From Plicaturopsis crispa FD-325 SS-3 (Eukaryota > Basidiomycota > Agaricomycetes > Amylocorticiales > Amylocorticiaceae), in the NCBI GenBank assembly GCA_000827205.1, contig KN832556.1, positions 351,436 through 415,435 on the forward strand: a stretch of 64,000 bases of DNA, written 5' to 3'. Positions 36,748 to 49,261 of the stretch are shown here, piece by piece. Made by a program: the position numbers and the translations under genes. Each line of letters starts with the position of its first letter. The first letter of the stretch is position 1. The notes under the pieces are model-generated. The model was not told the DNA's origin, made no database searches, and was given only the letters and a program-made list of their open reading frames with translations.

Positions 36748-37177
36748 GTCTTTGCAGGACCCCCGACAACCACCCAGAATGTGTGTTTTCAGTTCGGATG
36801 CGAAACGGCGCGCAGCGCCGGAGGTCTCTTCAAATTCGGATGCCAAATGGCCAAATTTTGGTCCAAGGTTTGTGCAAATTTTCGGATGCAAGACGCGACG
36901 AGGTGAAGGTCTGTGCAAGTTCGGATGTCGGGACTCAGATTTTGGTCGAGATCAGGCTGTGGCGGGGAATTTTTGTATTAAATACCCCTGATATAGACAA
37001 ATTTATACCATATCTAGCACTATGTATGTGTCATTTTTCGGATGCGAACTTGGCTTTGGCAGGGGTATAACCGATTTTCGGATGCGAACGGCGTCTGGGA
37101 GGGCAGGTCCCATTCGGGTGTTGACCCCCTCAGAAAAAACATACATTCTGGGTGGTTGTCGGGGGTCCTGTCTTTGC
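36748..37177. mobile_element. hAT-like MITE, 414 bases with 8-base target duplication
   Basis: The element spans 36756-37169 and is flanked on both sides by the perfect 8-base repeat GTCTTTGC (36748-36755 and 37170-37177). Its ends are inverted repeats of about 33 bases starting AGGACCCCCGACAACC, with one mismatch after the first 27 bases. An 8-base duplication is typical of the hAT superfamily. The inside has six direct copies of TTCGGATGY (near 36792, 36836, 36881, 36920, 37037 and 37077), which may be subterminal transposase-binding sites. There is no coding capacity, so this is non-autonomous. The nearly identical ends suggest recent movement. Confidence 0.8.
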
Positions 37178-38348: not shown

Positions 38349-41300
38349 ATGTTGCAGTATCCTCTCCCCCACCCGCCGCTGTCCGCCCTCTCCTCTCCAA
38401 AGCCCTCTCCGAAACTCTCTGCCAGCCGCTCCAGTAATGACCCCCGCCTAGCTATCGGCAAGCAGCAGCGGCAACAGTCGCAGCAGTCGCAACATCTGCC
38501 GCGCTTCAACCCCCCGTCCGCCACTCGCCTCGCTAACCTTTCCATTTCCTCTACTTCCTCATCTGCTGTTTCTTGTTCCCCTTCCCCCTCTTCCCCCTAC
38601 ACCATTGCCCCCAACACCACATCTTCAAAATATTCTGCTTCCTCGTCCCTTCCTAGTCGTCGCTCATCCACGTCCAGCCGCATCGAAGATGTCCTCTTTC
38701 CCGGCGATATCGTCGCCCCGGGTATCTTGCTTCAAGGCGAGTACATTCGTGAAGTACCCACAACCGTTCCTCCACCCTCGCCGCCCGCGCATGAGCTCGA
38801 GGTTGTCAGGAGGCTCGGTACCGGCTCCTACGCCGTCGTTTACTTGGTCCGAGAGGTCTTACGTCGACGTCAGCCGTCTTTAGAGGATCTCGTAGGTGCC
38901 ATGGATCTCCCCGACGCCAGCTCCACGACGTCGGACGATGTTATCTACGGCCGTGAATTCGCTATCAAGTGCCTCTCGAAGGCGAACCTCGACGAGGACG
39001 CCCTCGCCTCGCAGCTGTCGGAAGTTTCTATCCATCAATCTTTGCGCTCGCATCCGAACATCGTCACGCTCCATCGTACTCTCGAAACTCCGTCTTTTCT
39101 TCTCTTACTGCTTGAATTCGTCCCGGGAGAGGACCTGTTTTACTTCCTCGAGCAGGCGCGTGATCACTGCGCGTCCCCGGCGCCCGCGACCTCGCCTTCT
39201 TCCCGCACGCCTCCTACACCCTCACTGCTGTCGAATCTGCACCCTTCGCAGCTCCTTGCACGCACACGGCTTCGGCTAGTTGCGCGCATGTTTGCGCAGA
39301 TGTGCGACGCCGTCGCCGCCTGCCATGATCAGGGGGTTTTCCACCGTGACATCAAGCCTGAAAACTTTATCGTTACGGATGCGTGGGATGGCGCTGGCGA
39401 GCGCCGGGTAGTTGTCAAGTTGACGGACTTTGGATTGTCGACGACGGACGTGGAGAGCTGTGATATGGATTGTGGAAGCGCCCCTTACATGAGTTATGGT
39501 GCGTACTCTCCACCCTATCATCCACAGAGCTCTACCCCTAAACCACTATGTCTCGATCACAGAATGTAGGAATAATGTAGCACCGACGTATCAGCCTCGT
39601 GCGGCTGACGTCTGGTCCCTTGGCATCGTTCTCATTAATATGTAGGTCTCGCACAGTTTCTGTGTGTACGTCCTATGCTTATTCGGCTCTTTTCGTTAGG
39701 CTGTACCATTACAACCCATGGACTGACACTGCGGAAGGCGCCTGCCCATCCTTCGCTCTCTATCTCCAGAACCCCACTGCTTTCTTCATGCAGCGTTTCA
39801 TGGGCATGACACGCCCTGTCGCAGATTTCCTCGCCACACGAGTATTCTGCATCCTTCCCACCGACCCGGATGCCCCTTCGCCGCGTATATCTGCCCGTGA
39901 GTTCGGCAAGTGGGTGAGGGACCTGCCGGACCTTCTAGGCGACATCAACACCGGCAGCTCCGGGCACCAGAGAGGCATGAGCACCAGCTCGGCGACGACC
40001 GGTCACCGTCTCTCTGCGTCCATCCCCTCGCACCGTCCCTCTTCTCGCCAGGCCTCCTGGGGTACGACCAACACCCCGCTCACAGCGATGCGTCCGCTTT
40101 CGCGTGCACCATCGCTGGTTCCCGCCTTTGAGATCGAGACGACGGAGCTCCCGACTGTCATCGACCAGGCTGTCGAGGAGGTCGAGGAGCAAGAGGAGCC
40201 TGCGCAGACGTTCCACGGACGCTATGAGGTGTACCATGATCAGGACGAGGAGCAATACCACGACCACGATCAGGATATTGACCGCGAACAGGAACATGAC
40301 GATGGCCGTGACTCCCGCTCGCAATCCACGACGAAGCGGCGCAAGCGCGGTGCCCGCAAGGGCAAGGGCAACCCAACCAGCCCCACATCGCCGCTCGCGG
40401 ACATCACCGGCATGCCCAACTCTGCACGCAGCTTCGCGTCGGGCCTGGGGCTGCCGATTCCTGTGTCTGCGAAGTCGGATGTCTCCTTGGACACGCTCGC
40501 AGACGCGTCCCAGTCGCTTGCGCGCGAGATCAGCCGTGCGTCGCGCTCGTCACAGCCCAGCATGTCGTCCCGTGGCGGCTCGCGCGGGCGCAGGCAACGC
40601 GGTCCTCCGTCGCCTCCCTCCCTTTTCCCCATGCCCTTCCCCTACGTCCCCTCCCAACCCTCCGTCTCCGCTGTCCCTGCCCTCGCCGCGCAGACGCAAA
40701 CCCCCAGCGTCACCAAGAAGGCCTCGAAGTGGAAGCTCAGTTTCGGGAAGAACAGCTCGTCCAATGCCTCCATGCTTCCTCCGCCGTCGCCAGCCGACGA
40801 GACACCCAGCGTCGACGGAAGCAACGGCAGCGGCAAGTCGATGTCCGCGACTGCGAGCAACGTCACGAACCTCATCATGGGCCTCAACGCCCCGCAAATC
40901 ACGTCCAGCCCCGGCGAGCGCGACTTCTCCCCGCCGCGGTCACGTTCCCGCGGCCGCGACCGCAGGCCCAAGGCGAAGGCTGAAGTTCCCCCGCCCCTTC
41001 CCGGCGTGCTCCCGGCCGCCTGGAGTCCCGCCTCGCAGCGCGCGTTCTCGCCGAACAACGGGCGGCACGCGGACCACGCGACGGAGCGCGGGATCTCGCC
41101 GACGAGCACGCGCAGCGGGCGCCCGCTGGCGTCGAGCGCGAGCTCGACGACGTCGGGCAACTGGCGCAGCTCGATGTCGACGATGTCGAGTGCGGGCACG
41201 TCGACGAGCGCGTTTACGCGGTTCAGCAACTCGAGCAAGACGAGCGTGTCGACGAATGCGACGAGTGTGTCTGCGTCGAGCTGGCGCACGCAGACGAAGG

Positions 41301-49012: not shown

Positions 49013-49180
49013 CCATCCATACCTTGCTGCAACTATCAAACTAACTGCATGGCGTCCTGCAGGTAATTTAACTTAACTCGCACCTGCTCTGACCATTCTG
49101 CATGACGGCGTCCGACATGATTATCTTTGTAAATTGCTGGGATTCTCTTAGTCTTATCGTCATGTCCACAACAAATTTAT

Positions 49181-49240
49181 GCCCTCTATGCTTCCATCAT
49201 GCCCTCTATGCTTCCATCATGCCCTCTATGCTTCCATCAT
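49181..49240. repeat. Three perfect copies of a 20-base tandem repeat
   Basis: The unit GCCCTCTATGCTTCCATCAT occurs three times without a mismatch at 49181-49200, 49201-49220 and 49221-49240. It begins 22 bases beyond the ACR3 stop codon, in its likely 3' untranslated region. The unit keeps the plus-strand frame from closing, producing a spurious short open frame. Confidence 0.95.
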
Positions 49241-49261
49241 GCTCACACTGCTGGCCCATGC

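Follow-up and report, generated by a model that had tools for sequence, protein, structure and literature searches.

Miniature elements with 8-bp target-site duplications and a one-directional subterminal array in Plicaturopsis crispa, with a letter change shared across the array

The MITEs of the hAT superfamily, of which BuT2 is a described example (PMC3942097), are short and non-coding and combine terminal inverted repeats (TIRs) with 8-bp target-site duplications; the hAT elements Mar and Ds share these traits, and Ds has subterminal repeats as well. Rows of short motifs lying inside the TIRs are described for Hermes (PMC10368747) and for Kat1, which derives from a yeast hAT element (PMC4763223). 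The accounts of these two systems give subterminal motifs whose arrangement is not the same at both ends of Hermes (PMC10368747) and a motif polarity that differs between the ends of Kat1 (PMC4763223), and they name nTnnnnAn as the target preference of Hermes (PMC10368747). Among KDZ elements, Zisupton and Dileera are reported to leave 8-bp duplications (Kojima 2025, PMC12730594), and the Zisupton elements described from Pristionchus have TIRs, with duplications not detected in that account (PMC9297572). Kyakuja, named as the KDZ group present in each of the five agaricomycete orders that have TET-bearing elements, is described as lacking TIRs and as having CA..TG ends and 7-bp duplications (Kojima 2025, PMC12730594). 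A study of Marasmius oreades gives TIR motifs of KDZ and Plavaka elements in a supplementary figure (PMC8290104).

The elements analysed here, families A and B of P. crispa, are likewise short and non-coding, with TIRs and 8-bp duplications, and their subterminal repeats recall those of Ds as well as the motif rows of Hermes and Kat1. In contrast to Kat1 as described, their motifs run in a single direction across the whole element, and their rows also differ from those described for Hermes and Kat1 in that one shared letter distinguishes the subfamilies. They depart from the described hAT MITEs in that their tip and target preference lie off the hAT signatures tested and no hAT partner was found. 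When compared with the fungal Zisupton and Dileera elements by duplication length and gene content, tips aside, they are alike in their 8-bp duplications and in a genome where KDZ genes are abundant, but no KDZ gene was found between A or B tips.

The window, the whole 64-kb stretch of DNA analysed, corresponds to C3:351436-415435 of the 33.2-Mb assembly (49 contigs, designated C with a number). It contains a complete non-autonomous element of 414 bp (36756-37169, + strand), assigned to subfamily A1. The left TIR (34 bp, 36756-36789, + strand) begins AGGACCCCCGA and matches the right TIR (34 bp, 37136-37169, - strand) at 33 of 34 positions, the outermost 27 bases being perfectly inverted. The element lies between a perfect pair of 8-bp duplications, GTCTTTGC, at 36748-36755 and 37170-37177. 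The preliminary description had read these features as an 8-base duplication on both sides and near-perfect inverted ends, with 414 bases between the duplications, and both readings were borne out. When the window was scanned for inverted ends flanked by 8-bp duplications at a spacing of 100-5000 bp, down to a limit of 15/24, this element was the sole match (24/24), and the same scan of 20 base-shuffled control windows gave none at 16/24 or above. The longest open reading frame (bacterial code) entirely within the element has 95 codons (36783-37070, + strand) and is thus too short for a transposase. An Rfam search of the 64-kb window gave no match.

The subterminal array consists of the motif TTCGGATGY, which occurs four times in the left half (36793-36928, starts at 36793, 36835, 36881, and 36920) and twice in the right half (37037-37121, + strand), where it reads TTCGGATGC at 37037 and 37077 and is followed at 37113 by a seventh site in altered form, TTCGGGTGT. 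All sites point in the same direction at both ends. The six unaltered copies all lie on the + strand within the element, as had been described before; elsewhere in the 64-kb window there are zero on the + strand and one on the opposite strand, at 39058.

Whole-genome searching showed that the element is multicopy, which settled a question raised in the preliminary description, namely whether the sequence is single-copy. Because the similarity search scored the best candidates only, all genome copy counts given here are lower bounds. At least five full-length A1 copies, the window copy included, are 94-100% identical to the window copy, and there are partial copies and longer relatives besides; pairwise identity among the A1 copies is 95-99%. 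Subfamily A2 (487-488 bp) was found at C1:274190, C41:18933, and C1:2073212, and subfamily A3 (657 bp) at C37:19462, with arm identities of 71% for A2 and 65% for A3.

Family B was uncovered through a search with the array motif. Its TIRs differ from those of family A, the first 11 bases being identical; the reference copy (G000:C27:88698-89044) has the TIR AGGACCCCCGAATRTTAGG. At least 19 near-complete B copies were found in the genome, 92-100% identical over nearly the whole query, a count that includes the query copy as well as C2:2111197 (query 9-347) and a gap-broken copy on C14 (query 17-347). Ungapped B pairs in which both tips are exact number 17 and are 338-358 bp long. In a set of 17 B end pairs that includes the gap-broken C14 copy, the inverted ends match at 22-24 of the outer 24 positions in all 17. 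A further copy on C17 (C17:589996) is truncated and stands outside the 19; it is an old copy, whose array sites show changes of the CpG-decay type (CCCAGATG, CCCGAATG). Together, families A and B range from 338 to 657 bp and occupy at least about 32 genomic places, partial copies included, and A1, A2, A3, and B have in common the tip AGGACCCCCGA and an array around YCGGATG whose sites all lie on one strand. In a literature search by title and abstract, with the tip sequences themselves outside the search, we recognised no publication describing families A or B. The A/B group is a real and probably recently active set of MITEs with 8-bp duplications, new as a family but belonging to an established class of transposons.

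We then considered the insertion sites. Perfect 8-bp duplications flank 27 of the 27 end pairs read (5 A1, 3 A2, 1 A3, and 18 B, the gap-broken C14 copy included), and every one is different in sequence. Standing outside these 27 are copies that lack one end, have it altered, or have it within a gap or beyond the sequence read (C12:78573, C1:3882952, C17:589996, C2:2111197, and C19:457350), together with the right ends that recur at C22:270020 and C1:2074968. The outer position of the duplication favours G (30 of 54 half-sites); one duplication, at C8:801289, entered the counts in the orientation opposite to the strand of its copy, which bears on strand-specific base counts and leaves the symmetrised base counts and the motif counts unaffected. 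We rejected CAGGACC.. as an alternative tip, which would imply a 6-bp duplication, since its outer base varies between copies. When the flanks of eight sites were joined and searched against the genome, no paralogous empty site was found for any of them; the matches were their own places and two gap-adjacent repeats of the same flank only, and at the sensitivity of that search these insertions therefore lie in single-copy DNA.

That all 27 duplications are perfect and mutually different indicates a MITE moved by cut-and-paste. Together with the 95-99% identity of the A1 copies, it also supports the earlier proposal of a MITE with recent movement. The group is characterised by inverted tips and 8-bp duplications, by numerous separate insertions whose ends are near-identical, and by array sites at fixed distances. 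We consider it very probable that the element is a miniature non-autonomous cut-and-paste DNA transposon mobilised in trans. On this model, a transposase encoded elsewhere would bind the AGGACCCCCGA tips and the YCGGATG sites of the subterminal array, excise the element and reinsert it at staggered cuts 8 bases apart, the repair of which would give rise to the 8-bp duplications that are observed. The shared tip, duplication length and core motif suggest that A1, A2, A3, and B probably use one group of related transposases.

The preliminary description had proposed a genome search for relatives and for an autonomous element sharing the ends. The relatives were found, with differing 8-bp duplications in their flanks; no autonomous element with matching ends was found in the gapped assembly. 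The exact tip AGGACCCCCGA gave 65 matches in the genome, as against 10 for a reversed control. Fifty of these form 25 exact inverted pairs, 24 of them spanning 338-488 bp and one, on C14, spanning 1326 bp across a gap. The other 15 comprise three paired with an inexact tip (C1:1128350, C2:2111197, and C37:19462), two repeats beside gaps, two that run into gaps (C12:78573 and C1:3882952), one in the truncated C17 copy, and seven single tips, which is no more than the reversed control yields. Exact tips at long distance, arrays, hAT, KDZ, and MULE genes, and end-only matches (A1, A3, and B queries, with counts that are lower bounds) revealed no transposase gene between AGGACCCCCGA tips in this gapped assembly, and viral contigs gave 0 matches to the exact tip patterns. 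The partner may thus have been lost, lie in a gap, have altered tips, or belong to a class beyond those searched (hAT, KDZ, and MULE).

Several candidates for a longer element were assessed. At C12:78573 (L061) and C1:3882952 (L062), A-type copies pass on their inner side into other sequence and then into an assembly gap; these are possibly longer elements, or possibly sites of later insertions. The sequence between the C12 copy and its gap matched nothing among 15 loci or in the 64-kb window. The one new end-only match, C17:589996 (L111), was not a partner, as it is the old B copy, its match ending at query position 168 with other DNA following; six frames of 1.6 kb there gave no Pfam match. 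The intervals C1:2073212-2074968, C22:269005-270020, and C14:817780-819105 were rejected as longer elements, being repeats around N gaps. A repeated match, AGGACCCCTGACACCC, on C3 and C18 was likewise rejected as a relative, as it is part of a different repeat in the two of its four places that were read. That repeat lies at C3:757200, C3:764452, C3:787656, and C18:597604; the two copies read (L059 and L060) have 395 bp in common at 98%, adjoin assembly gaps and are without a CGGATG array.

Which superfamily supplies the transposase was weighed on duplications, tips, target preference and gene content, with hAT as our first guess and a Zisupton- or Dileera-like KDZ enzyme as our second. The element had been called hAT-like, and of that label the fit of the 8-bp duplications stood, whilst the Hermes target motif is at chance level, the tip is off the hAT consensus and no hAT match was found within 100 kb of an exact tip on its contig. 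That the element is a MITE of hAT origin, mobilised by a hAT transposase that would bind the array through its BED domain, has in our estimation about an even chance of being correct. Such an origin would agree with the 8-bp duplications and short inverted tips and with the subterminal repeats known in Hermes (PMC10368747) and in the yeast hAT-derived Kat1 (PMC4763223). The genome also has 13 hAT dimerisation-domain matches, all above the family cut-off. However, nTnnnnAn is present in only 1 of the 27 duplications, with about 1.4 expected from the base composition of the window, a motif that belongs to Hermes, other hAT groups preferring other targets, and TA at duplication positions 4-5 is present in 0 of 27. 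The hAT tip consensus is YARNG, which the AGGAC(C) tip of families A and B does not fit. The 12 hAT places (13 rows before one was merged with its neighbour) come no closer than 105 kb to an exact tip of their own contig, a distance to be read with the gaps and short contigs that limit reach.

KDZ genes are abundant, with 43 domain matches in the genome, 42 of them above cut-off and many in open frames, and Zisupton and Dileera are reported to leave 8-bp duplications as found here (Kojima 2025, PMC12730594). A non-autonomous Zisupton- or Dileera-like element is nonetheless a doubtful explanation in our view. The nearest tip to any of the 32 KDZ places (43 rows, 11 neighbouring rows merged) is 6.2 kb off and belongs to the complete A3 element, and the next is 22 kb off. 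Within 5.5 kb around the KDZ copy at C37:13253 there are four scattered CATCCG (two of them 25 bp apart) and zero CGGATG, and scanning C37:9500-24900 for duplications flanking TIRs yielded just the A3 element and a weak candidate (13/20) that does not enclose the gene. The traits described for Kyakuja are absent as well, the element having 8-bp duplications, AGG..CCT ends and TIRs. In open frames of 744 and 746 codons, C17:306041 and C24:173956 give weak KDZ matches, one above and one below cut-off, and are possibly a separate KDZ lineage.

Duplication lengths near 8 bp are also found in MULE, P, Merlin, and Novosib elements. One of these superfamilies, or an undescribed one, would account for the absence of both hAT and KDZ matches between the tips, but the MULE search gave two weak matches, one of them just above cut-off, and we regard this origin as unlikely too. 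An 8-bp duplication readily leads to an element being classed as hAT without a test; here the signatures tested favour hAT over none of its rivals. With clean young copies and defined tips and arrays, the mobilising enzyme can be sought.

The array itself was compared between subfamilies. Over A1, A2, and A3, the sites keep their distances from the left tip (39-40, 81-82, 127-128, and 166-167) and from the right tip (130-132, 91, and 55), with a spread of at most 1 base on the left and 2 bases on the right; the third array site of A3 is altered, to CCGGGC. In a genome search, 23 of 23 matches of the pattern TTCGGATG-N15..45-TTCGGATG fell within A1 copies, whole or partial (control, 3), and 55 of 64 matches of a CCGGATG-type array pattern fell within A2, A3, or B copies (control, 2). 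Within A1, variable columns number 0/56 in the motif and 24/351 elsewhere (two-sided P = 0.06), and conservation of the motif, modest by itself, counts as weak evidence when A1 is taken on its own; between A2 and A3, differences fall at 13/49 motif positions as against 124/286 others (P = 0.03). Most likely, the array is a docking row for a multimeric transposase or for its DNA-binding domain, the one-way sites at fixed distances from both tips serving as the places where it would dock. Against this, the same-polarity array makes the two ends unlike, which is not the simplest layout for two-end recognition. The earlier suggestion of a transposase-binding array is thus strengthened by site positions kept between subfamilies and by a shared letter change, with the binding role itself plausible.

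This letter change concerns the first base of YCGGATG, which is T in 35 of 35 cells in A1 (7 sites in 5 copies) and C in 20 of 21 cells in A2, 7 of 7 in A3, and 5 of 5 in the B copy on C27. The sole A2 exception is T at site 2 of C1:2073212. The count used full copies, partial copies being left out, and site 4 was realigned one base by eye because the alignment sets it one column off. Polarised by A3 and B as outgroups, T is the derived state. Outside the motif, fixed A1/A2 differences amount to 26 of 287 columns, and at that rate the chance of at least six of seven sites being fixed is about 4e-6, in a test that was chosen after the pattern had been seen and that treats the sites as independent. 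The comparison involves five A1 and three A2 copies, which are of common descent.

We read the array-wide T as best explained by an array that followed a changed transposase specificity. A trans-acting transposase, its binding to the array and its co-evolution with the sites would all be implied. More tentatively, and with the odds in our view against it, the subfamilies may be a fossil record of transposase-site co-evolution, in which a one-base change of specificity was followed in lockstep by the whole seven-site A1 array, A1 as against A2 and B being lock-and-key lineages in one genome. The shared letter could instead have arisen by mutational bias or by gene conversion among sites, with no selection by a binding protein. 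C to T is a common deamination change, here in a CCG context, and the copies are few and of common descent. However, a CCGG outside the motif (GCGCCGGAGG) is intact in four of five A1 copies, the fifth being altered at another base; a second CCGG outside the motif shows a change of the inner C instead; and CCGA is absent from the A1 sites. The bases around the sites also remain site-specific, so that conversion tracts would need to be very short. An origin by deamination or conversion is therefore disfavoured, and we think it improbable. The letter change over the whole array is the part worth following; if it is confirmed, it would offer a natural experiment in which a transposase and its sites change together.

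The window also contains other features. Another DNA transposon lies near its start, where a Plavaka transposase (PF18759, 722-2855, + strand) is split over two open reading frames, 722-1210 (profile 1-102) and 1188-2855 (profile 137-325). This transposase and the 43 KDZ domain matches of the genome suggest a basidiomycete host, probably an agaricomycete. A short tandem repeat with a 20-base unit in 3-4 copies lies at 49179-49252.
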